Below the pieces are notes generated by a model. The model was not told where the DNA came from, did not search any database, and saw nothing but the letters and a program-made list of their open reading frames with translations. Below, in pieces: positions 6,823-62,607 of a DNA stretch of 62,607 nt. Every line of letters starts with the position of its first letter. Position 1 is the stretch's first letter. Made by a program: the position numbers and the translations under genes. The DNA lies in IMG/VR virus record IMGVR_UViG_3300017728_000004, positions 1 through 62,607 of that record. One strand, written 5' to 3'. The stretch is from a virus.

Positions 6823-7050
6823 ATGGAAAGTATTGAAAAGCATATCGAGAAAGACAGGGAAATTCTGGATAATCCTATGACTTCTCCTAATCAACGCCGT
6901 CACATTGAGGGCGAACTTCATGAATTAGAAGAGTATGCTGAGCATCATAAAAAAGAGATTGAAGCAGGAGACCATCACGATCCTAGTTACATAGAACTAT
7001 TTTGTGATCAAAATCCTTCAGAACCAGAGTGTTTGGTATATGAAGATTGA
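6823..7050 (+). CDS. cp12: CP12-like Calvin cycle regulator
   Basis: A 75 aa protein, taking the ATG at 6823; an upstream in-frame TTG at 6814 would add only three residues. The C-terminus has a cysteine pair spaced C-x8-C in CDQNPSEPEC and ends VYED, the hallmark of CP12 where the disulfide loop binds GAPDH. A central acidic helix (ELHELEEYAEHH) corresponds to the CP12 core. The N-terminal cysteine pair of plant CP12 is absent. CP12 ties GAPDH and PRK into an inactive complex and so slows the Calvin cycle. Cyanophages are known to carry it, probably to divert NADPH and carbon toward nucleotide synthesis. cpeT overlaps it by 11 bases. Confidence 0.85.
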   Translation: MESIEKHIEKDREILDNPMTSPNQRRHIEGELHELEEYAEHHKKEIEAGDHHDPSYIELFCDQNPSEPECLVYED

Positions 7051-7492
7051 TGATTATATTTTAGGACATTGGTCAAATAAATTTCAAGCACAATCTGCTC
7101 CTCACCATTTTTCTACAGTAGAGATAGTATGGGAGAAAGTAGATGGAGGATATCATTCAAAAAATTATTTCAGGTCTGATGGTCCTGACAAACCTTATAG
7201 AGAAAGGTATCATAAAACTATTACCGTATCAGACACAGAAGTTCGTTTTGAGAACTATGACTTAGACTGGACAAGATGCGAAAACTGTGATATGATATTT
7301 AAGTTCGATGATAATATCTGGCATGGAAAATTGATTGGCGATCTATGCACAGGTGTTAGAGGGCATAAAGTTATATCTGAGATCCACCTCTATGGAGACA
7401 AACTACATAGTAAAGATCAAGGATATAACACGGAGGGTGAAATGATGTGGGGTTCAGAATGCCTTTACAAATTCATCCGACAGGGAGAATAA
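7040..7492 (+). CDS. cpeT: CpeT-like phycobiliprotein lyase
   Basis: A 150 aa protein starting at ATG 7040 inside the end of cp12; a 12-codon upstream extension lies within cp12 and is unlikely to be used. It shows the CpeT/CpcT pattern: GHWSNKFQAQ near the N-terminus, PYRERYHK, a Cys-rich CENCDMIFKFD, NIWHGK, and near the C-terminus SKDQGYNTEGEM followed by WGSECLYKF. CpeT-type lyases handle bilin attachment to phycoerythrin, and phage versions are known in marine cyanophages. It forms one transcription unit with cp12. Its last 10 bases are also the first bases of tRNA-Val. Confidence 0.85.
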   Translation: MKIDDYILGHWSNKFQAQSAPHHFSTVEIVWEKVDGGYHSKNYFRSDGPDKPYRERYHKTITVSDTEVRFENYDLDWTRCENCDMIFKFDDNIWHGKLIGDLCTGVRGHKVISEIHLYGDKLHSKDQGYNTEGEMMWGSECLYKFIRQGE

Positions 7493-38397: not shown

Positions 38398-38405
38398 ACA
38401 GAAAA

Positions 38406-38461
38406 CCAGTTGGGGAACTGGCACAAAACCCCTTGAAAATCACCCCAAAATCTGCAATAAT
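38406..38461 (+). promoter_or_regulatory. CCAGTT-N4-AACTGG palindrome and sigma70-like promoter, copy 5
   Basis: Perfect palindrome CCAGTT-GGGG-AACTGG (38406-38421), ACAAAACCCC, TTGAAA (38433-38438), 17 bases, AATAAT (38456-38461). The ATG of the next gene (38468) is at the predicted +1. Confidence 0.7.
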
Positions 38462-38467
38462 ACAATC

Positions 38468-38692
38468 ATGAACAAAACAAATCCAATGCTTCTCAACAAC
38501 TCCAAATTCATCGGTGCTTTACAAGGTCTGCAATCCTTTGTGATTGAAACTGGTGCCGACCTTGATATGGCGTTTGATTGGGTATGCGATCAGGCAAACA
38601 TTCCATCATTTGCAGGTGATTTAGATGCCTTTGATTGCTTCTATGATGTTTATAACGAAGCAGCAGATTCTGATCATGCTAACTGCGGATGA
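38468..38692 (+). CDS. Small acidic phage protein, possibly leaderless
   Basis: A 74 aa protein. The ATG lies 7 bases after the -10 box, so its message may have no leader. Acidic body (ETGADLDMAFDWVCDQAN, AFDCFYDVYNEAADSD). Unknown function. It couples to the next gene by ATGA. Confidence 0.6.
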   Translation: MNKTNPMLLNNSKFIGALQGLQSFVIETGADLDMAFDWVCDQANIPSFAGDLDAFDCFYDVYNEAADSDHANCG

Positions 38693-38928
38693 TTGATATC
38701 TTCTCCGATACGTTACAACAACTCTCAAACCTTTCTTTATACAAACCTATGACTACTTCCAATCCCTACGTTAACACCCTCATCGAGATGGGTTATGATA
38801 AGCAAGACTGCCAAGTCGCATCCACTATGTTTCAAAAGCATACTTTCCCATGTGTTATTCATGGTCGTCAATTTGACACTGAAGAGCAATACTATGAGGA
38901 GTTGCACGAGTACATGAATGGCATGTAA
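38689..38928 (+). CDS. Small phage protein
   Basis: A 79 aa protein in ATGA overlap with the previous gene. An internal Met about 20 residues in (MTTSNPYVNTLIEMG) is an alternative start. Contains CQVASTMFQKH and a C-terminal acidic helix (EEQYYEELHEYM). Unknown function. Confidence 0.55.
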   Translation: MIDIFSDTLQQLSNLSLYKPMTTSNPYVNTLIEMGYDKQDCQVASTMFQKHTFPCVIHGRQFDTEEQYYEELHEYMNGM

Positions 38929-38971
38929 TTGAAGCGCTTATCTAACTCTAATCACTTCACTATCTAACACA

Positions 38972-39133
38972 ATGCTTAAGCAAAATCTTCTCAAAGTTAT
39001 CAAAGAGTGTGCTACGGGTAAGGCACTCACAAAGATGGAAAAGTTTCAAGTCTTCTGTAATGTGTGTGACAATATGTTAGAAGAGGGAAGGATTACCCAG
39101 ATTCAACATCAACGATGGACTAACGTATTCTAA
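38972..39133 (+). CDS. Small phage protein
   Basis: A 53 aa frame (MLKQNLLKVIKECATG, KMEKFQVFCNVCDN) preceded by the leader motif TATCTAACAC. Two close cysteines (CNVC). Unknown function. Confidence 0.5.
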   Translation: MLKQNLLKVIKECATGKALTKMEKFQVFCNVCDNMLEEGRITQIQHQRWTNVF

Positions 39134-39161
39134 GCACTATCTAACACTCACTTCTCTCATT

Positions 39162-39296
39162 ATGCGAATCACTCAATACTTACTCAGTGGCATCTGTGTC
39201 TTCATGGGTCTCACTTGCTACCTGCTATTCCTTGCGGAACGTGATAGTAAGATGATGAACTATTTTGATTCCACTATGCAACAGACAGCACAATGA
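39162..39296 (+). CDS. Small membrane protein
   Basis: A 44 aa frame with one membrane span (YLLSGICVFMGLTCYLLFLA) and a short polar tail. The leader motif TATCTAACAC lies 15-24 bases upstream. Overlaps the next ATG. It is a candidate inner- or thylakoid-membrane protein. Confidence 0.55.
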   Translation: MRITQYLLSGICVFMGLTCYLLFLAERDSKMMNYFDSTMQQTAQ

Positions 39297-39496
39297 CTTA
39301 CACTAAGCAACAACTCATCGATGCACTTTGTCGTGAGTATGATTACCTTTGTCATGATGATTTCGATGCTGAGTTAGATGATACTCCTGAGGAATACCGC
39401 TTGAAACTTGAATGTTTCTCATTAAAAGATCTCATTGAAGAGTCATCAACTGGGGAAGGTTATACACTAGACGAATTTATGGAAAATTGGAATTGA
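39293..39496 (+). CDS. Small acidic phage protein
   Basis: A 67 aa protein, acidic (YLCHDDFDAELDDTPEE), helical ends. Starts in ATGA overlap with the membrane gene. Unknown function. Confidence 0.6.
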   Translation: MTYTKQQLIDALCREYDYLCHDDFDAELDDTPEEYRLKLECFSLKDLIEESSTGEGYTLDEFMENWN

Positions 39497-41841: not shown

Positions 41842-42088
41842 GAAGATTACAGATCAAGTTGAAGAGCAGGCAGAGGTTAATGTAGGGGAAACGTTACTCA
41901 CAGTCAATGAGTGCCTGATTGCCATCCACAAGCGCCTAGAAGCACTCGAAAAGCATGTGAGTGAGTTACCTACTCCAGACAAGACTTATTACAAACCAGA
42001 GGGGTATGAGGACTATCTCAATCTAGCTGGTAATTTGAAAGAAATCTATCGGAGGATCGGAGAGTTAGAGAATGGGATGCAAAACTAG
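41834..42088 (+). CDS. Small coiled-coil phage protein
   Basis: An 84 aa protein with heptad-like segments (LIAIHKRLEALEKHV and AGNLKEIYRRIGELE). It overlaps both neighbours (8 and 17 bases). It may be a structural accessory or chaperone for the following large virion protein. Confidence 0.55.
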   Translation: MSEKITDQVEEQAEVNVGETLLTVNECLIAIHKRLEALEKHVSELPTPDKTYYKPEGYEDYLNLAGNLKEIYRRIGELENGMQN

Positions 42089-44843
42089 AGGGTACAACTT
42101 TGGACTATGTGCTGGGTTCAGTGGAATTAACCCTGAGCATTGTGCTCATTACACTCCGATTGGTGGTGTAACATTTGAGTATAAAGAATATCCTCAGAAT
42201 GTAATTAGACAGGGGGACTACGAGATTCCTGATAGGGAAGATAATCGGGTAATGTATCCGTATAATCTGGAGTCAGTAACACCTGCAACGGGAGGAACCA
42301 CAGGATCAGGTAGTGGTATATCTGCAGCGAACTGTGGGAAGTTATCAAAACCCGATCCTTGTGCTTCTGGATTCGGAGGGGCCGACGGCGCGGTCTCCAC
42401 ACTGATCACAGACTGGTTTCCTACTGAGTTATCATTTGATTTTAACTTCTCAGACACTTGGTTTTCTTATTTGTATGATACTTCAGTCAAGTCAGGTATT
42501 GTAGGGACACCTTGTTATTATATTGAGACAGAAACTAGCAGCAGCAGTTCAGGAGGGAGCGGCAGTCGTCAGATTTGCCATCCTTGTACTTTGTTTACAT
42601 CTACACCTGCAGAGACTCAGATAACATATACAGCAGAAGAGGACCTTACAGGCGATCCTGATTGCCCTCATCCAACGTTATTTGCTATTGATACAAACTC
42701 TGACAAGATAGTCTTTTCTTATGATCAGTTATCTACGACTCTTCCTAATGGTGCAACTGACTTTGCATTAAGTTATGATGGTGTTACCTATACAGATGCA
42801 TGGGATCCAGATAATGAGAATCCTATTGAATATGAATCGAGTCAAAATCCTTGGCAGGCAGGTGATGAGGCAGCAAGTGAGTTTGAAATCTATGACTTCA
42901 CTAGTGGTGCAACTAAATCCGACTTCATTGTAAAGGCACGAGTTGAACCTATCTTTGATGATACAGGTGCTGCCACTGTGTTTAGTGGTACTAAATGGAT
43001 CATTACTGAGTTATTGAATCCTGGAACTGGTTATGCAGTTGGTGATGTATTCCAAATGACATTGTTGCATAGTCATCCTGATAACAGTCAGACGACTTTG
43101 ACTATGAATATCAAGGTAACTGGTATTGGTCCTGTAGATAATGTGACGAGTACAACTGGTTTTGATGTGCTACGAGTCAATGATAAGATCAATGGACATA
43201 CAATTACTCGTACATTCCATACAGATGATGAAAATTTCAAGTATCACGTTGTATATCTTGATGGGGACGGATTAGATTTTACCAAAGATACACAATACAG
43301 TTCAGATCGTAACCACGATATCACAGTAGTAGCGGGATATGGTATTAAAGATCGTGCATGTCTAGTAGGTCTGTATGAATTTCTAAACAAATCTATACAA
43401 TTTCTAACTGCAGACGTTAATAAGAATGCAGCAAGCGCATTTAATAGTATATTTCAACCTATTGGGTTTGCTACAGTCACTAATGGAGCAGTTACAGGAC
43501 TTTCCTTTGATGGGCAAGTCATGGGTTTAGATGTAACTAACATTAAAAGAAACCGAAGAAACTCATATAGTGACGCTGATAACGTTTCATTGACTGGTGG
43601 AGATGGATCTGGGTGTGTTGTTAACATCGTAACGGATGATAACGGGATGATTTCCGAAGTTATTATTGTAGATCCTGGTTCTGGTTATAACATTGGTAAT
43701 GTATTAGAGATTCCTGGTAGTCAGAGACCGTCAGGAACTCCTAAAAATGCTCTTATTGATGTCATTCTTGCATCTAGACCTGGTTCTGGGTTTGAAAATC
43801 TTAAGGTAGAACCCATTTTAGAGATTAGTCCGTCTCCACTTGCACCAATAGATGATAATAATGATGCAAAAGTGGATGCAACCTTCGTAGGTGGTTCTGT
43901 AAGTTCTGTACTTATCACAAAAGGCGGTATAGGGTATGATCAACTAAACCCACCTACGGTGACTGTTAACAATATTAACGATCCTATTCAGATTACTGTT
44001 GAAAATGATGGGTTTAATCCAAATTTGGTGGATGACTATCAAGGTATCTTAAACAGTTTACCCGAAGGAAGACCCGAATCACCAAAAATTTCCGCCGATG
44101 ATTTGCAAAGTATTGAAGATTCCTATAGTTTTGTTCCAGAATCGACGGATGTAGTCAATCAGAGTCCTAAATTTGAAGTAAAGATGGACCCTGAAAACGA
44201 AAGAGTCGAACAATTACCGCAACACAAGTATAGTTCTGATGCAACTACCCCTCTAAAGGAGATTATGAGGAATGATTGGGACACAACTTACCTAAAAGAT
44301 GTTCCAATTGATGCAGAATACAAGCAAGTGTTCCCTGATGAGATAGCAAGATCGAATGAACAGATCTCTGATGACATTGATTCTATAACACAACAGCAAA
44401 TTCCTGCATTTCAGGAACTTCCAGAGACTAAACTTGAGACCTGTGTAGGAAGTTTTACCAATTTACCTACCGCATCTCCGTTCACTAAATATATTATGCG
44501 TCAATATCGTCCTGATCCCGCAAAGGTCACGGAAATACAGGTTTCTTTGACTTGTACTCCTCAAGATATTGGTTGTGGTCACATTGTATGTGCTCCTCCA
44601 GCGCTATCGCCAGGATATTCTGAGACACTTGGTACGGGTACATTCACAACTGACCCTGAAACAGGTGAATCAACGGAAGATACGGAGACAACAACATACA
44701 GTTATGCAATGTCAGCATTACTTGGACCTGGAGCACAACCATGGACTGCTACTGGAAGTATGAAAATCTTCCATGACTTGACTAGAGACGCCCAAACTGT
44801 TATACTTGCAACTGATGCATACGGAAATCCCTTCGCAACTTAA
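42072..44843 (+). CDS. Large virion structural protein
   Basis: A 923 aa protein starting inside the preceding gene. A Cys-containing N-terminus (MGCKTRGYNFGLCAG, CAHYTPIGG), Gly/Ser linker zones (about 75-165), and beta modules with DPGSGYNIGNVLEI and GGIGYDQLNPPTVTV. These GxGY...PP repeats are the same type as those in the giant protein at 48.2 kb, so the two may share an assembly context. The end is acidic and Pro-rich. No catalytic motif. It precedes the PAAR tip and baseplate genes and is likely a baseplate or fibre component. Confidence 0.65.
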   Translation: MGCKTRGYNFGLCAGFSGINPEHCAHYTPIGGVTFEYKEYPQNVIRQGDYEIPDREDNRVMYPYNLESVTPATGGTTGSGSGISAANCGKLSKPDPCASGFGGADGAVSTLITDWFPTELSFDFNFSDTWFSYLYDTSVKSGIVGTPCYYIETETSSSSSGGSGSRQICHPCTLFTSTPAETQITYTAEEDLTGDPDCPHPTLFAIDTNSDKIVFSYDQLSTTLPNGATDFALSYDGVTYTDAWDPDNENPIEYESSQNPWQAGDEAASEFEIYDFTSGATKSDFIVKARVEPIFDDTGAATVFSGTKWIITELLNPGTGYAVGDVFQMTLLHSHPDNSQTTLTMNIKVTGIGPVDNVTSTTGFDVLRVNDKINGHTITRTFHTDDENFKYHVVYLDGDGLDFTKDTQYSSDRNHDITVVAGYGIKDRACLVGLYEFLNKSIQFLTADVNKNAASAFNSIFQPIGFATVTNGAVTGLSFDGQVMGLDVTNIKRNRRNSYSDADNVSLTGGDGSGCVVNIVTDDNGMISEVIIVDPGSGYNIGNVLEIPGSQRPSGTPKNALIDVILASRPGSGFENLKVEPILEISPSPLAPIDDNNDAKVDATFVGGSVSSVLITKGGIGYDQLNPPTVTVNNINDPIQITVENDGFNPNLVDDYQGILNSLPEGRPESPKISADDLQSIEDSYSFVPESTDVVNQSPKFEVKMDPENERVEQLPQHKYSSDATTPLKEIMRNDWDTTYLKDVPIDAEYKQVFPDEIARSNEQISDDIDSITQQQIPAFQELPETKLETCVGSFTNLPTASPFTKYIMRQYRPDPAKVTEIQVSLTCTPQDIGCGHIVCAPPALSPGYSETLGTGTFTTDPETGESTEDTETTTYSYAMSALLGPGAQPWTATGSMKIFHDLTRDAQTVILATDAYGNPFAT

Positions 44844-48211: not shown

Positions 48212-51200
48212 ATGAATATTAATAAGGTTTCTCAGTCTATCGCCAGTCAGACTCCCGACTTTATCGGGTCTGAATATCCCCTGTTTAATAAATTCATAGA
48301 ATATTATTACAGGTCCCAAGAAAAAACAGGTCTTGGTCAAAATATAGTCAATAACTTCCTACAATATCTGGATATTGACAAACTTGACATTGGTATCCTG
48401 GACGGTTCAACTAAAGTTGTAGAAGAGATTACAGCAACTAGTGACACCATTGTTGTTGAGTCTGTTGATCAATTTTTAGACGCTAACGGTTCGATACTGA
48501 TTGGCGACGAAGTAATTTACTACGAGAGTACGACTACTTCTCCAAACATTGCTCTGACTCCTGGTATCTCTTATGAACAGGTAAAACTTAAGTGGACTCC
48601 TCTTGCTCAGATCATTGATTCTTTTGATGGCACTACTCGTTCCTTCCCTTTAACATCTCAGGCCAATCCCATTGGACCTCCTACTGCACAACACATTATT
48701 GTTAGTCTTTATGGTGATGTTTTAATCCCTAACACGGATTATACTATTAGTGGAACAAATATTGTCTTCACAAATCCACCTAGGAGTAGAATTGCATCTG
48801 ATGACAATTCATCTACCTATATTACCTTCCTGAGTGGTTTTATTGAAAATACTATCGTTGGTATCGATAATATTTCAAATTCGTTTGGTGAGGGTAAAAC
48901 CGAATTTAAACTGACTAGAAATGGTGTAAAATATGAACCTATTGTTGATGAATACCTAGTTGCTGTTTATGATAATGAACTCTTAGTTCCTAAGGTTGAT
49001 TATTTTTTAGATGGTGATATTTTTATCTTTAATACTGCTCCTCTAAACGGACGATTCTTATCTCTGTATTCTATTGAGGCACCTATCCCCTCATTCGGTA
49101 GTGGTGCAGTTGGTTATGCCCGTATCGACAATCTGGGTCAGTTAACTTCTATTTCGATCAATGAAAATGGAAGTGGTTATAGATTTCAGTATCCACCTAA
49201 AGTTAATATTAGTTCTGTCAAGTCTGGTGCTGGTGCAAATGCCACTGCATTGGTAAATGGTATCAAATCTTCCACTTTACTGTCTGGCGGTAAAGGTTAT
49301 AGCGATACTAACCCTCCAACCGTAGTTATTGAAAACCCTACTGTTGCTGGATCTAAACTTGCCGAACTGAAAGCTACTGTTACTGATGGTACTATCACTG
49401 CAGTTAATATTGTTGATTCTGGTAGTGGTTATACTTTTACTCCTAGAGTAACGTTTAGACAACCTGGTGGTGCTATTCTTGGCGCACCAACTATCAGTAG
49501 TGGTTCTATTTCAGGAACAGTCACCGTTATTGACGGTGGTCAAGGATATACTACTGCACCTACAATTTACGTTGATGAACCTCTGGGTGATAATCCAATT
49601 AGAGCAAATATCCAGGCAGTTCTTACTAATGGTGTAATTACTGGCACTAATGTATTGAATGCTGGTCAAGGTTATACCTCTGTTCCTAGAGTTGCTGTTA
49701 TTGATCCTACTGGTGCTCAAGTCCTCCAGACTCAAGTTGATGGTGATGGACGTGTTATCGGCATTGAAATTCTCAGTGGTGGCAATGGATTTGATGATGT
49801 CCCCTCTGTGTATATTGTTGATAATAGACCTAATGGTGGTATTGGAGCAACTGCAACAGCATCTATCTTTAATGGTAGAATTACCGATATCAATGTCACT
49901 AATTTTGGTAGTGGGTATAGTGCTGCAACACCTCCCTCAGTAGTCATTCAAGCACCACCTCAGGCAGAAGCATCTGTTGAGATTGGTTTGAATGAAATTA
50001 CTGGATTCTCTATTAACAAGTCTGGTAAAGAATATTCTAAAGCACAGTTTATTGGTTGTGCCAGAGCAGCAAGTGGTGTCACTTCATATACTGAAAGTGG
50101 TAATGCTGTGTTCTCTAATGACACAATGGCAATGCCTGCTGCTGCATCTGCAAACGTAAAGTGTCTTGATGCTTTATTTGTCAAGAGACTTTTAGACAAA
50201 TACACCGAACAATTCCTTCCTGATGTTCCTGAACTGGATTATAAGAAGATTGACGTTCGTACTGCAATTAAATCAGTAAAAGATTTCTATTCTTCTAAGG
50301 GTACATCCTTTAGTGTTGCATATCTGTTCAAACTTCTCTACGGGGAACAGATTAGCATCTCATATCCTAAGGACCAAATTATCAAGCCTTCTTCGGCAAC
50401 TTGGTCTATTGATACGATTCTTCGTGCAACTTTAGTAAGTGGCGATCCTACAAATATTAAAGATGGTCTGCTGACTCAAGAAGCAGATATTGCAGATCCT
50501 AACATTAGAGCAGCAAGTGCTCTGGTTGAAAATTATATCTCTATTAAAACTTCTGAAGTTGAGATCTTTGAACTTGTCTTATCTGAAGAGACCATTGTAG
50601 GTTCATTCACAGTTCCATATAAGACTAAGTTGGCAGAACCTCTTGGTATAGAAGATAATGTCATTACAGTTGACTCTACGATCGGTTGGCCAGAAAGAAA
50701 CGGTGAATTTGTCATTGGTTCTAGCGAAGTAGTACAATATAAGGAAAAATCTCTTAACCAGTTTATCGAATGTACTCGCTCTGTTAACAATATTGTTGAA
50801 GATTGGGATTCTGCTACTCCTGTAGCATCTAATTTTACAGTATTCATTAATAGAGGAACGGCTCAGGAAGTAGTTCTGAATGTTGTTGGTATTGTTGATG
50901 CTCAGCAAACTACCCTTACTGATACTGGATCTTATTATCTTTCTGGTGATAAACTTACTGTATCTAAACTTGGTGGTACATCTACCAAACCAGAACTCAG
51001 AACTTGGTTGTACAACGTTAAGAAACTGATTGAAGTCAGTTCTGTAACTTTTGGTGGTATTAATAATCGGTTTGCAACAATTACCTGCTCTAATGCACAT
51101 GGTCTTTTAGTTGGTGATCAGGTTACCGTTTATGGTGCAAACCCAATCATTTACAACGGATCATTCTTCGTTACTTCTAGGGACAGTGAAACTATATTCC

Positions 51201-54200
51201 AGTATCAACTTCCTCAACCCGCTACTGTTATTCCTCAGGGCAATATCTTAGTATCAGTTGACTTGAACAAAGGTAAGTCTGATAATATTGCGGTTCTTAA
51301 TTCTATTGGACCTTACACAACTAACGTACAAAACTCGTTCTTTAACGACGACTCCGTTTATGTTGCATCTACTGGTATTCCCAACTATGCAATTGGTCCC
51401 TTCCCTGGATCTGCACTATTACCTGGTAACCAGCGTAAGTTAAACAGATTCCCACTGAATCCTCTAACAATTTCTACCAAAAGTAGTATTTCTCCTGGAC
51501 CTGTTGGTACATGGGTTAATGGCGTATCTATTTGGTCTTATAAGTCGGATATTGCAAAAACCTTTGGTCCTGTAACATCTATTGGTATTACTGATGCAGG
51601 TTCTGACTATGACGCTGCGTCCCCTCCAACCATTACCATTTCTGGTGGTGGCGGTACTGGAGCAACTGCTAGTGTTGTAGTTGATGGGTCTATCACGTCG
51701 ATCACAGTCGATGCATCTGGATCTAACTATACTTCATCCCCACTAGTCTCTATCGTCGGTGGAGGCGGTTCTGGTGCCGCTGCAACGGCAATTATCACTA
51801 AGGGTGTTGTTTCTAGAATTCTTATGAATTCTGGTGGTACAGGATATACCTCACAACCATCAATCACTATTGTTGGTGGTGGTGGTACTGGAGCAACTGC
51901 GACAGCATCTGTTCGTGGTCCTATCAAATCTATTGGAGTTGATGAGGGTGGTGCATCTTATACCTCTCAACCCGATGTCTCTTTGAGTTCTGGTTCTGGT
52001 GCTGTTGCTCAAGCAATTGTTAGTAACGGAAGAATCATTTCTATTGCTATCATCTCTGCAGGTAGTGGATATACTACTGCTCCTGAGGTCACTATTCAAG
52101 GTGATGGTTTTGGTGCTCTTGCGCGTGCAACCATTGATACTGATGGTGAAAATGCTGGTAGAGTAACTGCTATTGAAATCCTTAACAGAGGTATTAACTA
52201 TGTTCAGGGTACAACTATTATTAACCTGACATCTGTCGGTAATAATGCAACCTTTAGTTCCAATGTATTCCAATGGACATACAACTTAGAACAAACTACT
52301 ACATTTGATGCTGCAAAAGGTGCGGTCTTTGCTGGATTTAATAACCAGTATGGTGGTGAGTATGCACACCTTGCTAATCCTCAGAAACTAAGATATATCC
52401 TGGGTGATAACCTGTTTGTCAATACTAACGGCGAAACCCTTGAGCAAGAAGATCAGTTAACACACTCTCCTATTATTGGTTGGGCATTTGATGGTAATCC
52501 CATCTATGGTCCTTATGGATATACCGATCCTACGGATCAGGCATCAGCAATCAGCAGACTTGATACTTCATATCGTCTTAAGACAAATCTTGTTTATAAT
52601 GAAACTACAAATCCATATCCTGTTAGAACTGCTGGTCCTCTCTTAACAGAAGAGACTGCAGGTAAGTTTATTGAAGACTATGAGTATGTCTTTGGTTTAG
52701 GTGATCTAGATCAATACAATGGTCGCTTCTGTAAGACCCCTAATTTCCCAGAAGGTGTATATTGCTATTTTGTTACTATTGACACTACCGAGAATGGTAA
52801 TGCACTATTCCCTTATGTTACTGGTCCAGATTTCAACTCAGTTGTTGATTCTTGGAATCTTAATAAGGATGCTGTACAACAGAATATTCCTACAGGTGTT
52901 GTCCGCTACAGAGATCCTTATGAGAACGTTGATATTGACGTTGAGAGGGCACCGAATGCCTCTACAAACGCTCTAACCACCGAGGGTGGTGAAATCCTAC
53001 TCTTTGATATAGAAGACGAGAATAGAGACGGTATTATTGATGCTGCAGAAACTGCAGATCCCGATCAATTATTTGAAGAGTCTCCTTTACAACTCTTTGA
53101 TTATTTCCCTTCAGTAAGATTCGATTCTAAAGTTGATATTGAAGTTGAAACGATTACTAAGTTTGAAGATGCAGCAGTAACAGGATTCACTGTTGAAAAT
53201 CCTGGTAAGAGTTATCAAGTTAATGATATCTTAACCTTTGATAATAGTGGTACTGAGGGTATTGGCGTATCTGCTCGTGTTTCTAGGATTACTGGTGAGA
53301 CTATCCAATCTTATGGATTTGAGACTGTAAATGATAAGAATTACGGTGTTGTTCAAACCACCGTCCCCCATAACATTACTGCAGGAGATACTGTTTTCGT
53401 TGATTATAGTCCTGTCATGGACAACACGAACAAGCAGTTTATTGTCCGTCAGTTAAAAGGTATTGAAGAACTTGTAATTGAGCAAAGTGGATCTGGATAT
53501 GATGATCAGATTCCTCCTACAATTATTATTGATGGCGATGGCGAATCTGCATCATTAGAGGCAGTAGTTACAACTGTTGGATCTATTGACAATGTTAACA
53601 TTATCAATTCTGGTTCTGGATATACTAAGAACCCTAGAGTTATTCTGAGTCATCCTCAAGTATTCAAGAAAGCGGATTATTACGTTTCTACTATTGCAAA
53701 TCAAAATTATGTCAAAGTTAATGATGCAATCGTAAATGGTGATAAAGAACTTTTTGTTTGTGGTAAAACCTTAGATAATAACAGTAACGAAGTAGCATTT
53801 ATTGCTAAATTCTCTGCTCTTGGAGTAAAAGAGTGGGAGAACTCTTTAGAGAGTCAAACAGGTCAAACTTATACCGAATTCCTCAAATTAGACGTTAGTG
53901 GCAATAATATTTGGGTAGTTGGTGAAAACAAACCAAATGCAACCATTCTTGCTGCATATAACCCAGATATCATTCTTGCAAAATACACTCAGGCTGATGA
54001 TGGTCTTAGTGCTACGTTGAATTTCCAAAAGGGTTATGCTGGTATCTCTGGTTCTACTCGTGCAGATAAAGTAACAGCAATTAAGAGATATTCTGATACT
54101 CGTTATATCATTGGTGGTTATACAAATACCAACTCAGCAAATCCATATGATGCATTCATCGCATCTATTGATTCAACTGGTAATTTTGCTGCAAAGAGAA

Positions 54201-57200
54201 AAATTTCGACTTCTTCTAAGTCGGAAAAACTTCTTGATCTGATTGTTCTTGATGATGCAGTTTATTTCGTCTTAGAAACTGCTGATAGTGATAGTGCTAC
54301 TGATATCAAACTATCTTTCGGTAAGGCACAGATCGGAACTAGTGCAATTACGATTGATTGGATCAAGGAAATCAATAACTCCTTGTATTCCTTCCTGAAT
54401 GTAAGTTTAGTCTCTGATGAATTTAATGAGTGTTATATTAATGCAACACTAAGACTCAAGTCGGACAATACTACTAAAGATAGTTTCTGGGTTGGTAAAT
54501 TTGATACCACTGGAGAGGTTCTTTGGAATTACAGATATGTTGCTCCTGCAGGTGAGTCTGTTGAAGTTGCACAGAAGGGTGTTATCGACATCTTTGGTGA
54601 TTTGAACGTAGCATTCACTAGAACTAATAACACTACCTTATATAAAACTGTAGATACTGTTAAAATTGGTTATGATGGTAAAATAAAGTCTCATACTAAT
54701 AATGAATTCAATAAGAATAATATTGAAGGTATTTCAGTACATGCTTTAACTGTTGATAACTCTGGTGATGTTTATGCCTTAGGTCAAACCTCTTGGAACA
54801 GAAATGAGTTCATCCTTGAGTTTACTTCAGGTGCAACTACCGATACTTGCGACCATTACACTCCAACATACACAGGAACTGCTGGTGCAATTCAATATCT
54901 TGCTAATGCAGCATATCTACCTGGATATCAAACTGCATCACCATCTTCTTGGGAAAATGCAAATATCACAATTCCTGCAGCACAGTTAGGAACTAAACTT
55001 AATGATGATTGGACCTGTGAATTCATGGTCTATAAGAATGGATCTGAATATAACGACTTTAGTCAAACTCAGGTCACTTTGATGGCAATTGGTGATGCTA
55101 CCGTCTCTACTGGTGGTCTGTGGTTGTATTATGATCTTTCTAGTGGCAAACTTGAATTAGTTGTTACTAACAACACCACTTCTATCAACTCTGCAGGTAG
55201 TGCATTACAATCTGTATCAACAACGATGTATGCAGATAATAACTGGCAGTTTGTTGGATTAACAAAAAGTGGCAATACCTTCACTGGTTATGTAAATGGT
55301 ATTCAGGTATTCACTGGAACTATCGCAGACACTAGTCTCGGTAATAAGGATATGTTCTTTGGTAATATTCCTGGCAGAAACACTACATTGGGTGATTTCC
55401 GTTCTAATGAACAGTTCCAGGGATATTTCGATAATATTAGACTTAGAAACAGATTAGTTACTCCTACAGTTCCTTCTGAGGTTTCTGCTCTACCTACTTC
55501 AGGTGGATATGGTCTTGCTTTCAGTTGGGTTGATACTGCTTGGTTCACAACTAATATGAATCGTTATGATTACATCGATTATATTGGTTGGGCTCTTAAG
55601 ACTGATAAGAACTCGGATTCTGCAAGAATTGGCGATCAGGGTGTTAAGACTAATACTGGAGTTGGTTTTGCTAGAACTACAGTTACCCCAGTCACGGGAT
55701 CCACTCTCACTGTAACTAATGTTGGACTTGCTCTGGGTGATGCTGGATTGCAAACTCTAGATTTTGATGATGCAACTATCACTCTTGCTCAGGATACAGA
55801 AGCATTAACTTATGCTGTAGATGACTGGAGTTCTAGAACATCCACAGTACCTTCACCTGGATCTCAAAAACTGAAAGTTACTGCGGTTGTCAGAAACAGA
55901 TACTATATTAAGGTTACTAACACTGTCAAAATTGATAATGTTCAGGAACTTACTATCAATCAACCGTTTGCTTTTACTGTTGGTTCAAAACTTCGTTTGA
56001 ATAGTGATTCAGGATCCTTTATCAACAGTGGTTATATCTTAAGAATTGACAGAACTAATAATAAAGTGTATGTTGCTGTTAATAATAATGCCTGGTCAGA
56101 TGATCTGAACACTGGTAATCTGCTTACTGAACAGTTTGCAGAGCAAAGCACTTATGGTATTACTGGTCCTGTTCCTCAGGATGTGAATATTATTACTGAT
56201 TATATCTTTGAGAAAATCGATAATACCACACCTGGTACGTTTGATATTGATCTAGACAAGTATAATTTAGATAATACCTATAACGCAGGCGGTGGTCAGA
56301 ATCTGGACTCCTTTGCTAAGTTCAAACCTTTCAATACTGATTTTTACGGTGTTAAGATTGAAGAGGTTTCTGGATCATCAACCTTTATTGTTGGATCTGT
56401 TGTTAATATCTCAGCTTCTGATATATCATTCAATGCAGCATATACTACTGCTCAGATTACAAATCTTACAGGTGTTCTAAAAATCACCCTAGTTGCTACT
56501 CTAGACAAGACTTTGCAATGCACTGCAGTTGCTAATACTGATGAAGTTTATGTAATTACTAACGATAAGCATTATCTGTCAGTTGGTGAGAACATTAGTG
56601 TAGATGGTAATCCATCTCAAGAATCAGGTGGTGTCACATATGACGAATATGACGGTTCATTCATTGTTGATAGTGTAGTAAGTTCTAAAGAGTTTACTTA
56701 TAAACTATCTGCTGCAGCAATCACTGCACCTGCAGTATCAGCAGGTTCCGTTAGTGTATTTGGTAAGTCTCCCGTCTTGAAGATGTACTATGGTCACCAG
56801 TATCTGTTTGACCTCAGTCACTCTTCTATGGCTGGTGCTAACCTGTCGTTCTCCAAAGATAATCTGTTTAAACTGGAGTATTCTTTCAACTCTATCGAAA
56901 GAATTGGAACACCTGGTTTGACTGGAGAAGGACAACCTACTCCTACTGTAAAATTAAAAGTTGGAAGAGGTACGGTAACTAATATCTCTTACTACTTCGA
57001 TCCTTCTAGAACTGGTAGTGAATCTCCTATTGCAGATGGTAGTTATCTTGATATTGTTGATTCCCCTTATTTGGGAACCTTTACTATCACAGATACTTCT
57101 GGTGGTACAATCACTACTGGCGATACCATTTATAAATTCTTACTTCCTGATGAACCTGAAGGTGTTGCAACAGTTTCTCAATCATCTTATAGCACCAGTT

Positions 57201-60200
57201 CGACAAAAGCAGTTGGACCTATTTCAGATATTAGAATCGTCAATGCTGGCGGTTTCTACTCCAGACTTCCTATTGTAACGGGCATTCAATCTTCTCGTAA
57301 AATTGAAAGAGTTGCTATCAACGAACCTGGTACTGAATACACTGTTGGTACTTACAATGCTGTTCCTATCGGTGGAGATGGTGAAGGTGGTTTAGTCTCT
57401 ATTACTGTCGCAGATGGAACAGATGACGAGGGTGTTTCAATTCCTGGTCAGGTACAAGAAGTTGTCGTTACTTCTCCTGGTAAAGGATATACAACAGCAA
57501 CAATTGATCTTGAAGCAATTGAGGGCATTCTTGGTGCTGGATTGACTGGATCTGGTGCTGAATTGGAAGTTGTTATTCCACCTTTCGGCATAGGTGCTTC
57601 TATCTTCACCAAAGGCGATAAAGTTGGTAAGATTAAGAAACTTAAGAACAACAACTTTGGTTATGATTATCCTCATGACTATACACTCCGTCCTGAGATC
57701 ACATTCCCGATCAACGCACAATTAACATCTACTAGTATTCTTGACAGTATTACTGTTACTAATCCTGGTTCTGGTTATTCACAAGCACCTGCTGTTGTTA
57801 TCACAGGTGGTGGTGGTACTGGCGCTATTGCTGAAGCATCAATTAGAAACGGTCGTATTGATCAGATCTTAGTGAAAGATCCTGGTGCAGGATATTCTTC
57901 TGAACCAACTGTTTCTTTGAAGTCTTCTTTCAACTATGTTGTTAACCTTGACTTGGGTCTTCTACAGTTTGCTTTCCCTCACGGAATTGTAAATGGATCG
58001 GAAGTTACTCTTAGTGTAACTGATACTGGAGATGGTGCTGATTTCCCTCTGGCAGCAGGTGCTTTGGGTAGATTGAATTCTACTACAACTTATTTTGCAA
58101 TCACAGGTTCTGCAAACTCTCTAGAAGATGATCAGTTAAAACTTGCAATTACTGCTGCTAACGCAGAACTTGGTGATTCAATCAGTTATGCTAACACTGG
58201 TGTTGGCAGACAATCATTACTAACCGAATCTTTTGGTGCTGCTGCATCTGCAAACGTTATCACTTCTACTTTCCTTGAAGGTGAGTTGGTTTATCAAGGT
58301 GATACACTTGAGACTGCAACTGCGACTGGTTATGTCTCTACTAACAGTGGTTGGCAGGTTGGTCCTAGAGTTCTTAAGATTGTTGATTACACTGGTGATT
58401 TCGCAAGCAATCAAAGAGTAACTGGTGTAATTTCTAAATCTTCTGGTATCATCAGCGATCTTAAGATTGCAAAGGGTGTTCTAGAGATTGGTTCTATCAC
58501 TAAGACCACAGGTCAGTTTATTGATGACGTTGGTAAGCCTTCGGAAATCATTCAGAAGATCCAAGACTCTTACTATTATCAGGACTTCTCTTACGCTGTT
58601 AAGTCTTCTGTTTCTATCGATGACTGGAAGGACATCTTAATCAAGAACGTTCATCCTGCTTCGTTCAAAGTATTTGGTGAGTTGAATCTGAATGAGTATG
58701 GTTCAATTCCCAACAAGATCACTGACTTCCAGTTAACTAAGTCTGTTGAACTTGCAAGAGAGTCCATTGTTCCTAACATTCAAAGTTTCTCTCTGGTTGA
58801 ACCTGTATATTCTGAGTTTAACAATACTGAGGTTCTTTTCCGTCAGAAGAGACTAACTTCCTCTGAGAATATTTTGACCTCTGTTGTACAGCGTATTGAT
58901 AATATCTCAAACTTGTTTGATGGCGAAAGAATTTCGTTCCCTCTGACGGTTTCTGGTAACAACGTTGTTGCTAACTCCAATCAGTTGATGATCGTCTTGA
59001 ATGGTGTTGCTCAAACTCCTAACACATCATTTGAGGTTCAAGGTGATTCGATTGTATTCAGCGAACCCCCTTCACCTCCTGCAAGTGTCAAGTATGTCAA
59101 TGTAACTATTGATCAAATTAATAATGTTAGTTTTGCATTCACTAATCAAAGTGGTATCTTCCCTTATGTGGGTGACACTCTGATTGGGGTATCTTCTACA
59201 GCAAGATTAACTGTAACTAAAGTCCTTGGTGATGTCATTCAAGGTTATGTAACTGAAGGAACGTTTATTATTGGAGAACTTTGCACAGTTGGTGCAACTG
59301 GATTCTCTGCTAACTTGGCAACTAATACTGCAATCACTAACATTGGATTGTTCGCTTTTGGTGAGACGGTTACTAATCTCCAAGGTGATACTGCTAAAGT
59401 TGAGCAAATCAACCTGCAAAGCGGTCAAGAAACACCTCTTGCTAAATTACGTTATACCATTGGTGCAGCAACTGCTAGTGTCGAAGTTGTAGCAATTGCT
59501 GATGTAGATGCACCTGTCCCTGCAGGCACATTTACCCAAGGTCAAAAGTATCAGTTCGGATCTGAAATCTTTACTGTTAATACTATCACTGATGGATCAG
59601 ATTCCACAACTCTGGGTCTGACTAGAGGCGAGGATGGTACTCAAGCAGTAGCACAACAGGAAGACATTCCTATCTACGGAACTCAAATTTCTGTCACTGA
59701 TGCTCTTACTCTGAGTAAGACTGCTGGTACATACAAATCAACACCTGGTCTATACGATATCGAACTCAATGATGTCATTATTGGGGCATCTTCAGGTGTT
59801 GTTGCTCGAATTACCTCTACATCAGCATATCAAGATCCCGTAACTCAAGAGTTCATTGGACAGGTTAATATCTCTGAGGGTTCTTCCTTCTTCGGTCTTC
59901 TGTTCAACAGAATTACATCTCAGACTTATCCAAATATTGTCTTGGATGATATTTCCAAATCAACTGTAAGTATTGTTGATTTCACTGATAATGCTACTGC
60001 ATTCGATATTCGCTTCCCATCAAATGAACTGATTAACAACTTTGTCATTCCTTATGACACTGCATCAGGTGCTTTACAGCAAGACGAATATATTCGCAAC
60101 TACAAATTAGAGTATGGTAGTTCTAGTGCTGACTTCTTTGCAAATGAAGGTGGTAAGACTAGAAAGTTAACTTTCACTGATAGTGTAGGTAGTGGATTCT

Positions 60201-62607
60201 TTAACGCTGGTCAAGTAATCAGAACCGCTGATACAAAGGCAGAGGTTATTGGTTATAATCAGGCAAGAAGAACTCTTTATCTTGGTAAGATTGGTAGAAC
60301 TCAATCTACAGGTCAAGACTATCATTCAGCAACCTTTACTGCTGGAGCTTCTCTCAATACTTACAATGAGAGATATGGAACGGCATGTTTATCACTTTCT
60401 CGTGGTACTGCTCCTCATACTTTTGTTAGTGGTGTTACTAATGCAATCACTGCATCTGTTGGTGCAAGTGGGACATTCACTGCTGCAACAGGAACAACTT
60501 ATGAACCTCTTTCTGGACTCTTAGTCCTTGAGATTGGAACTCACTCCTTGACCACCAGCAATAAAGTAACTATTGCCGATAATGGTGTCGTATTCACTTG
60601 TGCTTCAGATAATAACACCAATAACTATGCATATCCTCGTTCTGGTGATCCTGCATCTGGTCAAGCACTTACAATCACAGGAACCACTTCAACCACAATT
60701 ACGGTTAACGTTGGAGCAGTTCCTGTTGATGAGTATATTAGTTATGCCACCTCTACCGAATTTGGTTTTGGAACAGGTGCATTTACGGTCGAACTTTGGG
60801 TTAATCCTATTTCTGTTTCTGCAGGAAGCAAGTCACTCTTTGACTTTAGAACAGCAGCAACCGAACTGTCACCCTATCTGTATCTTGATGGTGCAAACCT
60901 AAAATACTACAATAATGGTAGTGTTACAATCACTGGTACAACAAACTTAGTTGCTGGAACTTGGTATCATGTTGCCATCAGCAGAAGCGGTAGTACAACT
61001 AAAATGTTCCTCAATGGAACACAAGAGGGTGGTGATTACAGTGACGCTAGTGATTATGGATCCACAAAACCAATTAGAATTGGTGCTGCTTATGACGCCA
61101 CTGCAGTATTGCCTGGTTATGTCGATGAGTTCCGTGTTTCCAATAATGCTCGTTACACTGGTACATTCACTGCACCTGCAGGTATCTTCCAAGGTGATGC
61201 TAATACAAAACTACTTCTCCATATGGATGGTGAAGATGGTCAAACTTATGTTGATGATTGGTCTGGCACCGAAGGATTTACTAAGGGTGAAGACTTCAAT
61301 AACGGTGCAATTCTTGCAACATCTAGACTTACAGGAGCACCTGCTGGATTCGCTGGTAGGTCTCAAAGATACTATGATGCTGCGAACCTGATTGAACTCA
61401 ACAAAGATTATATTGCTAAGGAAACAGTCTATCTATTGACTCAGCAATATCCATCATTGACAATTCCTGGTGGTAATGTCAATTGTGAAGATGATATTCG
61501 CGATATCTTATCTGCGATTATCGAAGATCTTCGCAATGGTTCTAATAGTCATCTATGGGATGCTGCAGCATTGTATGTCGATAGAACAACTGTTCCTATC
61601 ACTATCAGTCATGTTGATACTGAGATTACTGAAACCTTATGGGCATATGAAAAAGTTGATGATATTCTCCAGTACATCATTAATAATACTCTTTGGACAA
61701 CTGCTGGTTCTCATGGATTGACGCAGAGAACTGATACTACAATTACAGATTCTTCTACGTCATCTCTGACTAAATTTACACCTGTTGCACCAACAACATA
61801 TGCTGAGGATACAGGTCTGCTGACTCTATCCATTGGATCTCATTCACTAACAACAGCATCAAGAGTTTCTCTAGCAAGAGAATCAATTATATTCACTTGT
61901 GCTGATGATGGTAATGATCGTCAAATCGCTTATCCTGATCCTGGTAATGCAACTGCATATGATCAAGTTCTAGCAGTAGAAGCAGTCACTGCAACAACAA
62001 TCACTGTTAATGTTGGAGCATCTCCTGCTGGTCAGCAATATGCACACACATTCGTAAGTGCTGCAGCAAATGCAGTCACTGAACTGGATTACACGACAGG
62101 AGATTGTGCAGATGTTTATAGCACAATCGGTAACCTGATTGACATCCTTACTGATACGCTCACCAATGCAAATCTGAGTTCTCCTGTCGATCATTTAGCA
62201 AGTGTAACTAAGGTTGCTCCAGTATTTGAATTCCAGGGTGGTACAGTTAATGCATACCTAGAAACCGACTTTACAGTTAACTATCAAGACACTGTAAATG
62301 ATCTGATTTATACCAATCAAATTGATGGTGACGGTCAGTATAGATTTAGAGATGCCGCTGGATTGATTCGTGCTAACCGCACACCTATCGTAGATAAAGC
62401 AGCAGCAGATATGATCACAAGATATCCTGATCTCGCTCAGGATATGCCTAGAAACCAAAGTGGTGGTAGTACTGATGGTACTATTCGTTGTAAAACTGAC
62501 CTAGGACAAATTCTGGATGCGCTCGCGAATGATATTGAAAATGGTGGTAATAGAAATACCGTCACTGCTGGTAACTTCTATGTCGGTGCTAGTGGAGAAC
62601 TACAGCA
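48212..62607 (+). CDS. Giant virion/baseplate protein, 3' end beyond window
   Basis: An uninterrupted frame from ATG 48212 to the window edge: at least 4798 codons. It follows gp6, the T4 gp7 position, although no gp7 similarity is evident. Visible parts: N-terminal TPDFIGSEYPLFNKF; blocks of ~40-residue GxGY...PP...GGGGTGA beta repeats (about residues 307-597, 1120-1347, 1753-1817, 3003-3240); a YHYH-type motif (GWAFDGNPIYGPYGY, about 1423); a propeller-like region with FIAKFSALGVKEWEN repeats (about 1827-2207); LamG/concanavalin-like domains (about 2247-2423 and 4187-4350); and two copies of a SLTT...FTCA module (about 4097 and 4533). No hydrolase motif is obvious. It is probably a wedge or peripheral adhesin that reaches the cell surface. 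Confidence 0.75.
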   Translation, partial: MNINKVSQSIASQTPDFIGSEYPLFNKFIEYYYRSQEKTGLGQNIVNNFLQYLDIDKLDIGILDGSTKVVEEITATSDTIVVESVDQFLDANGSILIGDEVIYYESTTTSPNIALTPGISYEQVKLKWTPLAQIIDSFDGTTRSFPLTSQANPIGPPTAQHIIVSLYGDVLIPNTDYTISGTNIVFTNPPRSRIASDDNSSTYITFLSGFIENTIVGIDNISNSFGEGKTEFKLTRNGVKYEPIVDEYLVAVYDNELLVPKVDYFLDGDIFIFNTAPLNGRFLSLYSIEAPIPSFGSGAVGYARIDNLGQLTSISINENGSGYRFQYPPKVNISSVKSGAGANATALVNGIKSSTLLSGGKGYSDTNPPTVVIENPTVAGSKLAELKATVTDGTITAVNIVDSGSGYTFTPRVTFRQPGGAILGAPTISSGSISGTVTVIDGGQGYTTAPTIYVDEPLGDNPIRANIQAVLTNGVITGTNVLNAGQGYTSVPRVAVIDPTGAQVLQTQVDGDGRVIGIEILSGGNGFDDVPSVYIVDNRPNGGIGATATASIFNGRITDINVTNFGSGYSAATPPSVVIQAPPQAEASVEIGLNEITGFSINKSGKEYSKAQFIGCARAASGVTSYTESGNAVFSNDTMAMPAAASANVKCLDALFVKRLLDKYTEQFLPDVPELDYKKIDVRTAIKSVKDFYSSKGTSFSVAYLFKLLYGEQISISYPKDQIIKPSSATWSIDTILRATLVSGDPTNIKDGLLTQEADIADPNIRAASALVENYISIKTSEVEIFELVLSEETIVGSFTVPYKTKLAEPLGIEDNVITVDSTIGWPERNGEFVIGSSEVVQYKEKSLNQFIECTRSVNNIVEDWDSATPVASNFTVFINRGTAQEVVLNVVGIVDAQQTTLTDTGSYYLSGDKLTVSKLGGTSTKPELRTWLYNVKKLIEVSSVTFGGINNRFATITCSNAHGLLVGDQVTVYGANPIIYNGSFFVTSRDSETIFQYQLPQPATVIPQGNILVSVDLNKGKSDNIAVLNSIGPYTTNVQNSFFNDDSVYVASTGIPNYAIGPFPGSALLPGNQRKLNRFPLNPLTISTKSSISPGPVGTWVNGVSIWSYKSDIAKTFGPVTSIGITDAGSDYDAASPPTITISGGGGTGATASVVVDGSITSITVDASGSNYTSSPLVSIVGGGGSGAAATAIITKGVVSRILMNSGGTGYTSQPSITIVGGGGTGATATASVRGPIKSIGVDEGGASYTSQPDVSLSSGSGAVAQAIVSNGRIISIAIISAGSGYTTAPEVTIQGDGFGALARATIDTDGENAGRVTAIEILNRGINYVQGTTIINLTSVGNNATFSSNVFQWTYNLEQTTTFDAAKGAVFAGFNNQYGGEYAHLANPQKLRYILGDNLFVNTNGETLEQEDQLTHSPIIGWAFDGNPIYGPYGYTDPTDQASAISRLDTSYRLKTNLVYNETTNPYPVRTAGPLLTEETAGKFIEDYEYVFGLGDLDQYNGRFCKTPNFPEGVYCYFVTIDTTENGNALFPYVTGPDFNSVVDSWNLNKDAVQQNIPTGVVRYRDPYENVDIDVERAPNASTNALTTEGGEILLFDIEDENRDGIIDAAETADPDQLFEESPLQLFDYFPSVRFDSKVDIEVETITKFEDAAVTGFTVENPGKSYQVNDILTFDNSGTEGIGVSARVSRITGETIQSYGFETVNDKNYGVVQTTVPHNITAGDTVFVDYSPVMDNTNKQFIVRQLKGIEELVIEQSGSGYDDQIPPTIIIDGDGESASLEAVVTTVGSIDNVNIINSGSGYTKNPRVILSHPQVFKKADYYVSTIANQNYVKVNDAIVNGDKELFVCGKTLDNNSNEVAFIAKFSALGVKEWENSLESQTGQTYTEFLKLDVSGNNIWVVGENKPNATILAAYNPDIILAKYTQADDGLSATLNFQKGYAGISGSTRADKVTAIKRYSDTRYIIGGYTNTNSANPYDAFIASIDSTGNFAAKRKISTSSKSEKLLDLIVLDDAVYFVLETADSDSATDIKLSFGKAQIGTSAITIDWIKEINNSLYSFLNVSLVSDEFNECYINATLRLKSDNTTKDSFWVGKFDTTGEVLWNYRYVAPAGESVEVAQKGVIDIFGDLNVAFTRTNNTTLYKTVDTVKIGYDGKIKSHTNNEFNKNNIEGISVHALTVDNSGDVYALGQTSWNRNEFILEFTSGATTDTCDHYTPTYTGTAGAIQYLANAAYLPGYQTASPSSWENANITIPAAQLGTKLNDDWTCEFMVYKNGSEYNDFSQTQVTLMAIGDATVSTGGLWLYYDLSSGKLELVVTNNTTSINSAGSALQSVSTTMYADNNWQFVGLTKSGNTFTGYVNGIQVFTGTIADTSLGNKDMFFGNIPGRNTTLGDFRSNEQFQGYFDNIRLRNRLVTPTVPSEVSALPTSGGYGLAFSWVDTAWFTTNMNRYDYIDYIGWALKTDKNSDSARIGDQGVKTNTGVGFARTTVTPVTGSTLTVTNVGLALGDAGLQTLDFDDATITLAQDTEALTYAVDDWSSRTSTVPSPGSQKLKVTAVVRNRYYIKVTNTVKIDNVQELTINQPFAFTVGSKLRLNSDSGSFINSGYILRIDRTNNKVYVAVNNNAWSDDLNTGNLLTEQFAEQSTYGITGPVPQDVNIITDYIFEKIDNTTPGTFDIDLDKYNLDNTYNAGGGQNLDSFAKFKPFNTDFYGVKIEEVSGSSTFIVGSVVNISASDISFNAAYTTAQITNLTGVLKITLVATLDKTLQCTAVANTDEVYVITNDKHYLSVGENISVDGNPSQESGGVTYDEYDGSFIVDSVVSSKEFTYKLSAAAITAPAVSAGSVSVFGKSPVLKMYYGHQYLFDLSHSSMAGANLSFSKDNLFKLEYSFNSIERIGTPGLTGEGQPTPTVKLKVGRGTVTNISYYFDPSRTGSESPIADGSYLDIVDSPYLGTFTITDTSGGTITTGDTIYKFLLPDEPEGVATVSQSSYSTSSTKAVGPISDIRIVNAGGFYSRLPIVTGIQSSRKIERVAINEPGTEYTVGTYNAVPIGGDGEGGLVSITVADGTDDEGVSIPGQVQEVVVTSPGKGYTTATIDLEAIEGILGAGLTGSGAELEVVIPPFGIGASIFTKGDKVGKIKKLKNNNFGYDYPHDYTLRPEITFPINAQLTSTSILDSITVTNPGSGYSQAPAVVITGGGGTGAIAEASIRNGRIDQILVKDPGAGYSSEPTVSLKSSFNYVVNLDLGLLQFAFPHGIVNGSEVTLSVTDTGDGADFPLAAGALGRLNSTTTYFAITGSANSLEDDQLKLAITAANAELGDSISYANTGVGRQSLLTESFGAAASANVITSTFLEGELVYQGDTLETATATGYVSTNSGWQVGPRVLKIVDYTGDFASNQRVTGVISKSSGIISDLKIAKGVLEIGSITKTTGQFIDDVGKPSEIIQKIQDSYYYQDFSYAVKSSVSIDDWKDILIKNVHPASFKVFGELNLNEYGSIPNKITDFQLTKSVELARESIVPNIQSFSLVEPVYSEFNNTEVLFRQKRLTSSENILTSVVQRIDNISNLFDGERISFPLTVSGNNVVANSNQLMIVLNGVAQTPNTSFEVQGDSIVFSEPPSPPASVKYVNVTIDQINNVSFAFTNQSGIFPYVGDTLIGVSSTARLTVTKVLGDVIQGYVTEGTFIIGELCTVGATGFSANLATNTAITNIGLFAFGETVTNLQGDTAKVEQINLQSGQETPLAKLRYTIGAATASVEVVAIADVDAPVPAGTFTQGQKYQFGSEIFTVNTITDGSDSTTLGLTRGEDGTQAVAQQEDIPIYGTQISVTDALTLSKTAGTYKSTPGLYDIELNDVIIGASSGVVARITSTSAYQDPVTQEFIGQVNISEGSSFFGLLFNRITSQTYPNIVLDDISKSTVSIVDFTDNATAFDIRFPSNELINNFVIPYDTASGALQQDEYIRNYKLEYGSSSADFFANEGGKTRKLTFTDSVGSGFFNAGQVIRTADTKAEVIGYNQARRTLYLGKIGRTQSTGQDYHSATFTAGASLNTYNERYGTACLSLSRGTAPHTFVSGVTNAITASVGASGTFTAATGTTYEPLSGLLVLEIGTHSLTTSNKVTIADNGVVFTCASDNNTNNYAYPRSGDPASGQALTITGTTSTTITVNVGAVPVDEYISYATSTEFGFGTGAFTVELWVNPISVSAGSKSLFDFRTAATELSPYLYLDGANLKYYNNGSVTITGTTNLVAGTWYHVAISRSGSTTKMFLNGTQEGGDYSDASDYGSTKPIRIGAAYDATAVLPGYVDEFRVSNNARYTGTFTAPAGIFQGDANTKLLLHMDGEDGQTYVDDWSGTEGFTKGEDFNNGAILATSRLTGAPAGFAGRSQRYYDAANLIELNKDYIAKETVYLLTQQYPSLTIPGGNVNCEDDIRDILSAIIEDLRNGSNSHLWDAAALYVDRTTVPITISHVDTEITETLWAYEKVDDILQYIINNTLWTTAGSHGLTQRTDTTITDSSTSSLTKFTPVAPTTYAEDTGLLTLSIGSHSLTTASRVSLARESIIFTCADDGNDRQIAYPDPGNATAYDQVLAVEAVTATTITVNVGASPAGQQYAHTFVSAAANAVTELDYTTGDCADVYSTIGNLIDILTDTLTNANLSSPVDHLASVTKVAPVFEFQGGTVNAYLETDFTVNYQDTVNDLIYTNQIDGDGQYRFRDAAGLIRANRTPIVDKAAADMITRYPDLAQDMPRNQSGGSTDGTIRCKTDLGQILDALANDIENGGNRNTVTAGNFYVGASGELQ

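Follow-up and report, generated by a model that had tools for sequence, protein, structure and literature searches.

An enlarged gp7-family baseplate protein of a marine cyanophage and its phycobiliprotein-like domains

A reading frame of several thousand codons at the end of a viral contig raises two questions: whether it is one gene, and what kind of protein it could encode. In the 62,607-base IMG/VR fragment analyzed here (the window), 4798 stop-free codons at 48212..62605 on the plus strand reach the end of the contig. A sequence-only reading of this DNA had proposed an open frame of at least that length running on outside the window, and both parts of the proposal held. The independent IMG/VR contig L017 shares residues 1043-4798 at 99.95% identity and then continues to a stop. 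This overlap recovers the full gene, as that reading had recommended; 1042 codons from the window and 5133 from L017 give a total of about 6175 codons. Because the independent contig is nearly identical and continues to a stop, the frame is not an assembly fluke. Homologs in isolates are also unbroken (6064 aa in S-MbCM100 and 6076 aa in syn9), and the first 1000 residues are matched in 482 phage records. The family is PHROG 701, a known gene of T4-like cyanophages. Taken together, the continuity in L017, the unbroken isolate genes and the matching records confirm the frame as real and place it in an established gene family. Size alone might prompt the thought that several separate genes have been fused or misassembled here, but we found no evidence in favor of this, and since the independent contig and many isolates all have the frame without a break, the idea is scarcely credible.

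We conclude that the phage is a T4-like marine cyanophage and that the gene very probably encodes its gp7-family baseplate wedge protein, which has grown by domain insertion (Table 1). The gene order in the window is gp25-gp6-giant gene. The same order occurs in other cyanophages, and in P-HM1, S-SM2 and P-SSM2 a gene named gp7 likewise comes after gp25 and gp6. The window protein contains the PF23786 wedge block and the W...HPxGF block, and three blocks (N, wedge and the C-terminal block with the HP motif) are common to all cyanophage homologs compared. A profile of the wedge block that was built without T4 matches T4 gp7 in the PDB (E 9.3e-6). T4 gp7 (sequence from NC_000866) has the wedge motif and a W...HPVGF motif, with W...HP at residue 875; the C-terminal block in T4 gp7 is recognized by this motif only. 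In gp7 of phiN3 (1006 aa), the N and wedge blocks almost adjoin and the third block is at the end. Family members range from 1454 aa (S-CRM01) to more than 7300 aa (P-TIM40), and the larger members have their surplus residues between the core blocks and behind them. Cyanophage records often already call these homologs gp7. Homologs have been found in virions by mass spectrometry (PMC3037559, PMC10665884), where the detected proteins are equated with the giant gene from position and cluster labels.

The sequence-only reading had suggested a multi-domain structural element beyond T4 gp7. Much of this stands: there is one giant multi-domain protein, in a baseplate position and with the kinds of domains proposed. 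The words "beyond gp7" do not stand, given the core blocks and the match to T4 gp7 itself. As the conserved blocks are present but split by large insertions, the protein is better described as gp7 with insertions.

The neighboring genes were also compared with T4 baseplate proteins. The ORF at 42072-44843 was considered as a gp7 ortholog, its counterpart in S-MbCM100 being labeled gp7. It has no gp7 wedge block and is weakly gp8-like, and is therefore not the gp7 ortholog; the RefSeq gp7 label of the S-MbCM100 counterpart looks wrong. The start of S-MbCM100_083 (38219-39445 in its record), the gene after the giant, is like T4 gp10 and gp9 (E 1.4e-6) and not like gp8. In this lineage, gp8 thus appears to have been relocated upstream.

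Between the core blocks lie beta repeats, a YHYH domain, a seven-bladed propeller and the first LamG domain, and after them come the second LamG domain and a duplicated module. All of these had been named from the letters alone, and each was recovered by repeat search, family profile or structure prediction. No beta repeats were found in a shuffled copy of the sequence. In the YHYH domain, H1386, H1418 and several Asp are invariant in a 19-row alignment; AlphaFold gave no usable model of its fold (pLDDT about 25). YHYH domains are predicted to be zinc-dependent hydrolases and are fused to tail and baseplate proteins (PMC7824862). The propeller model matches CylK in Foldseek (E 9e-15), followed by Sec12 and sialidases. 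Adhesion by the LamG domains and the propeller is plausible.

Table 1. Features of the giant gene and the CpeT-type gene, in coordinates of the window
Feature	Position	Strand	Basis
CpeT-type bilin lyase gene (ORF 7004..7492)	7052..7462	+	PF06206, over cut-off
Giant gene, probably gp7-family baseplate wedge, N-terminal 4798 codons	48212..62607	+	ORF list, contig L017 overlap, homologs
gp7-family block N, residues 5-57	48224..48382	+	Iterative HMM, all cyanophage homologs and phiN3
Beta-repeat block 1, 7 copies, residues 312-592	49145..49987	+	Repeat search
gp7-family wedge block DFYSSKGT...LFKLLYGE, residues 646-756	50147..50479	+	Pfam PF23786; profile match to T4 gp7
Beta-repeat block 2, 5 copies, residues 1122-1313	51575..52150	+	Repeat search
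YHYH domain, residues 1331-1526	52202..52789	+	PF14240, 112.6 bits, over family cut-off
Beta-repeat block 3, 2 copies, residues 1754-1830	53471..53701	+	Repeat search
Predicted seven-bladed beta-propeller, residues about 1835-2215	53714..54856	+	AlphaFold model, seven four-stranded sheets
LamG domain 1, residues 2305-2413	55124..55450	+	PF02210, E 3e-8
Beta-repeat block 4, 2-3 copies, residues 3083-3238	57458..57925	+	Repeat search
gp7-family C-terminal block W....IKNVHPxxF, residues 3370-3500	58319..58711	+	HMM, all cyanophage homologs and phiN3
LamG domain 2, residues 4177-4314	60740..61153	+	PF13385, E 1.4e-26
Phycobiliprotein-like domain 1, first part, residues 4384-4500	61361..61711	+	PF00502; profile A1 against PDB
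Domain 1, presumed last helix, after beta insertion	62084..62191	+	Sequence pattern, comparison with domain 2
Phycobiliprotein-like domain 2, cut by contig end	62351..62605	+	PF00502, E 0.0016, below cut-off

The sequence shows that the three conserved gp7 blocks, which by comparison with T4 probably build into the wedge, keep their order, with large domains inserted between them and added after them. We suspect that each virion bears six long outward arms formed by the inserts. The LamG and propeller domains may bind surface glycans or other receptors, and the YHYH domain, in line with the published prediction, may act as a metal-dependent hydrolase.

The duplication of the last module was correctly noted from the sequence, with copies at residues about 4384-4500 (plus about 4625-4660) and from 4714 to the contig end; the phycobiliprotein-type nature of the module was missed. 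The module recurs at a period near 160 residues. When a profile of 16 copies was compared with all PDB sequences, phycobiliproteins made up 60 of the 60 matches listed (best E 5.6e-6). The matches listed for two further profiles are likewise phycobiliproteins, apart from some names, such as smURFP, that belong to fluorescent proteins of this family. PF00502 matches domain 1 at 61346-61486 with an E-value of 8.6e-5, which is below the Pfam family cut-off. At the sequence level the phycobiliprotein match spans about the first 60 residues only (hhalign of the whole unit likewise aligned only the first part), and the second half rests on a model. A template-free AlphaFold prediction of copies 2 and 3 of L017 from a 45-row alignment has a pLDDT of 89.7 and a pTM of 0.85. 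Its best 20 Foldseek matches are all phycobiliproteins with a probability of 1.00, at E-values of only 0.04-0.15. The top match in VIA-align is phycoerythrin beta (7ap5_BBB; Z 17.8, rmsd 2.4 Å over 144 residues), with residues 1-157 of the model on residues 34-184 of the chain. All of the 50 entries listed are phycobiliproteins or derived from them, with Z of at least 15.6 and an rmsd of 2.0-2.4 Å over 129-144 residues; Z values up to 13-14 can be uninformative for helical models, and those of the module lie above that, in agreement with the sequence matches.

A generic helical bundle that resembles phycobiliproteins by chance is very improbable: helical bundles can reach high Z by chance and the matched stretch of sequence is short, but three profiles match only phycobiliproteins among the PDB matches listed, the conserved residues fit the CxRD motif, no unrelated fold is among the 50 structural entries, and the hosts of the carriers are cyanobacteria. 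The profiles and the model firmly support homology of the module to phycobiliproteins and a predicted phycobiliprotein fold. In phycobiliproteins, the N-terminal X/Y hairpin mediates subunit pairing in phycobilisomes. These helices are missing in the module, where the structural match begins at chain residue 34-37, and other domains precede the unit. No report of the relation to phycobiliproteins was found in the part of the annotations and literature that we covered. We regard this relation as the new point, the giant frame itself being a known gene, gp7 with insertions.

The residues of the bilin site are conserved to differing degrees. Phycobiliproteins and related globins usually attach bilin at a CxRD motif (PMC10151467). 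Domains 1 and 2 of the window keep its Cys and Asp and lack its Arg: C4425 (61484-61486) is in CEDD and C4760 (62489-62491) is in CKTD. L017 contains an intact copy of domain 2 and a third copy, in which the Arg is present. Copies from S-PM2, Syn1, S-RSM4 and B23 keep CxRD, often as KCxRDIGY, a string that occurs in phycocyanin alpha. Among 93 non-redundant copies, Asn is invariant, Cys is present in 89%, Asp three residues further on in 85% and a GG turn in about 85%. In a set of 94 non-redundant copies, 77 have C..D/N at the bilin site and 43 the full CxRD; the Cys counts of both sets come from an HMM over 176 loci that descends from a motif search seeded with C..D, and may carry some of the bias of that seed. 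A second Cys may be present as well. The presumed last helix of domain 1 contains GDCADV, whose Cys (62105-62107) appears from the sequence pattern to resemble the beta Cys-155 region, and model residue 138 would correspond to residue 158 of beta-phycoerythrin in an ungapped alignment of the last helix. A clear Cys at this model position is found in only 20 of the 94 copies. All three copies found in the gp7 region of P-SSM4 lack Cys, although this phage has CpeT, and the third copy lacks Cys in several relatives. Cys is therefore not always needed.

The module is present in 368 of 50,697 phage records, of which 367 are named Synechococcus, Prochlorococcus or cyanophage and one is titled "Marine". 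It is found in gp7, tail fibers and short tail fibers. In S-SSM5 the protein with the module is a member of T4-GC 969, and this cluster has been detected in S-SM1 virions after purification (PMC3037559); the S-SM1 modules lie within a 6180-codon frame after gp6. A putative short tail fiber of S-RSM4 carries at least seven phycobiliprotein-like copies in one protein, most with CxRD. Three very large frames of S-PM2, S-PM2d081, 088 and 218, acquired mutations in a chemostat coevolution study (PMC9910659). The first of these is the one that follows gp6, and S-PM2 has modules in frames of 3340 and 3792 codons, which fit 088 and 218 by length.

What do these domains do in a tail? One answer is that they are purely structural: the stable helical phycobiliprotein fold of the host would have become a repeated spacer, in which Cys persists through ancestry or for packing. 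The tandem arrays with their regular period, the spread of modules over several different tail proteins and the loss of Cys from some copies are consistent with this. Arguing against it, Cys and Asp are far above background in a protein poor in Cys (18 in 4798 residues), and both persist among copies whose identity is otherwise about 25-35%. We give a structural role a little less than an even chance. The domains would be host-derived helical modules, and where no bilin is held they could serve as stable spacers or binding surfaces.

The conserved bilin-site residues point to another answer, that the domains carry covalent bilin loaded by the phage CpeT during infection, so that baseplate and tail fibers are pigmented. 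We hold this more tentatively, as one possibility. The window phage encodes a CpeT-type lyase (Table 1), a possible partner of the modules. In 28 cyanophage records, CpeT is present in 19 of 21 with modules and in none of seven without (Fisher p 3e-5 for the raw table). A gp6 tree, however, yields just 1-3 independent contrasts for this pair of traits, which is not significant (sign test, p = 1). Since the association is not independent of phylogeny, we treat the link between CpeT and the modules as suggestive. For seven published genomes an expectation was set before testing, and six agreed. The seventh was Syn1, which has modules and no CpeT in the published table, yet a full-length CpeT was found there. 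This gene (NC_015288, 19950-20462; E 1.5e-35), unlisted in Table 3 of PMC3037559, is just upstream of a module-bearing frame of 4026 codons. S-PM2, S-RSM4 and Syn1 each have cpeT a few kb or less upstream of a tail gene that carries modules.

Several observations speak against loading by CpeT. In addition to P-SSM4, whose modules lack Cys despite a CpeT, B23 and ACG-2014f keep CxRD and have no CpeT, and P-SSM2 has a bilin reductase and neither module nor CpeT. T-type lyases act on Cys-beta155 (PMC2327270), and most copies have no clear second Cys. As for other partners, an S-type lyase (CpeS) that might serve the modules in phages without CpeT was found in none of 30 records, and co-occurrence of the module with bilin reductases followed no clear pattern. 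That the domains can hold bilin in part of the family has, in our estimate, slightly less than an even chance. The full picture, in which virions carry bilin-binding phycobiliprotein domains in baseplates and tail fibers, loaded by the phage's own lyase and pigmented, we consider unlikely. We offer the pigmented virion as a hypothesis, whereas homology and fold are firm.

Cyanophage genes for bilin synthesis and attachment have so far been read as aiding the host antenna, and what bilin genes and cpeT do in phages has been called unresolved or, for Prochlorococcus phages, a mystery (PMC3037559). A phycobiliprotein-type domain in virion tail proteins provides a substrate within the phage. If virion domains do bind bilin, this would explain cpeT and bilin genes in phages, including those of Prochlorococcus, which lacks phycobilisomes. 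Even without bilin, a light-harvesting fold used as a virion building block would be a striking capture of a domain from the host. In addition, the split gp7 core shows how a fixed baseplate scaffold can accept thousands of extra residues.

The giant protein resembles gp7 of T4 (5HX2, 5IV5) and phiN3 in its place after gp6, in the DFYxxKG...LFKxLY wedge block and in the C-terminal W...HPxGF. In contrast to these, it is about six times longer, insertions of roughly 590 and 2600 residues divide its core, a long extension comes after the core, and it has phycobiliprotein-type domains, which are not detectable in T4 and phiN3. The members of PHROG 701 and T4-GC 402/969 (S-MbCM100_082, syn9 gp101 and P-HM1 gp7) are the same gene, with 85% identity to the S-MbCM100 homolog over the first 1000 residues. 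PHROG 701 homologs are annotated only as "virion structural protein", "putative fiber", "YadA domain protein" or "gp7", and the relation to phycobiliproteins is absent. The module is like phycobiliproteins (PF00502), especially the beta subunits of phycoerythrin and phycocyanin, in its predicted fold from the end of helix A to helix H, the invariant Asn, the bilin-site Cys and Asp, and the GG turn. It differs from them in having no X/Y helices, in an identity of 15-22%, in its tandem arrangement within a tail protein and, in the two window domains, in having no Arg of CxRD. The globins and photoglobins associated with bilin biosynthesis (PMC10151467) are, like the module, relatives of phycobiliproteins outside the antenna, some with CxRD or CxQD. 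By their description they are set apart from it as free-standing bacterial proteins encoded beside bilin genes.
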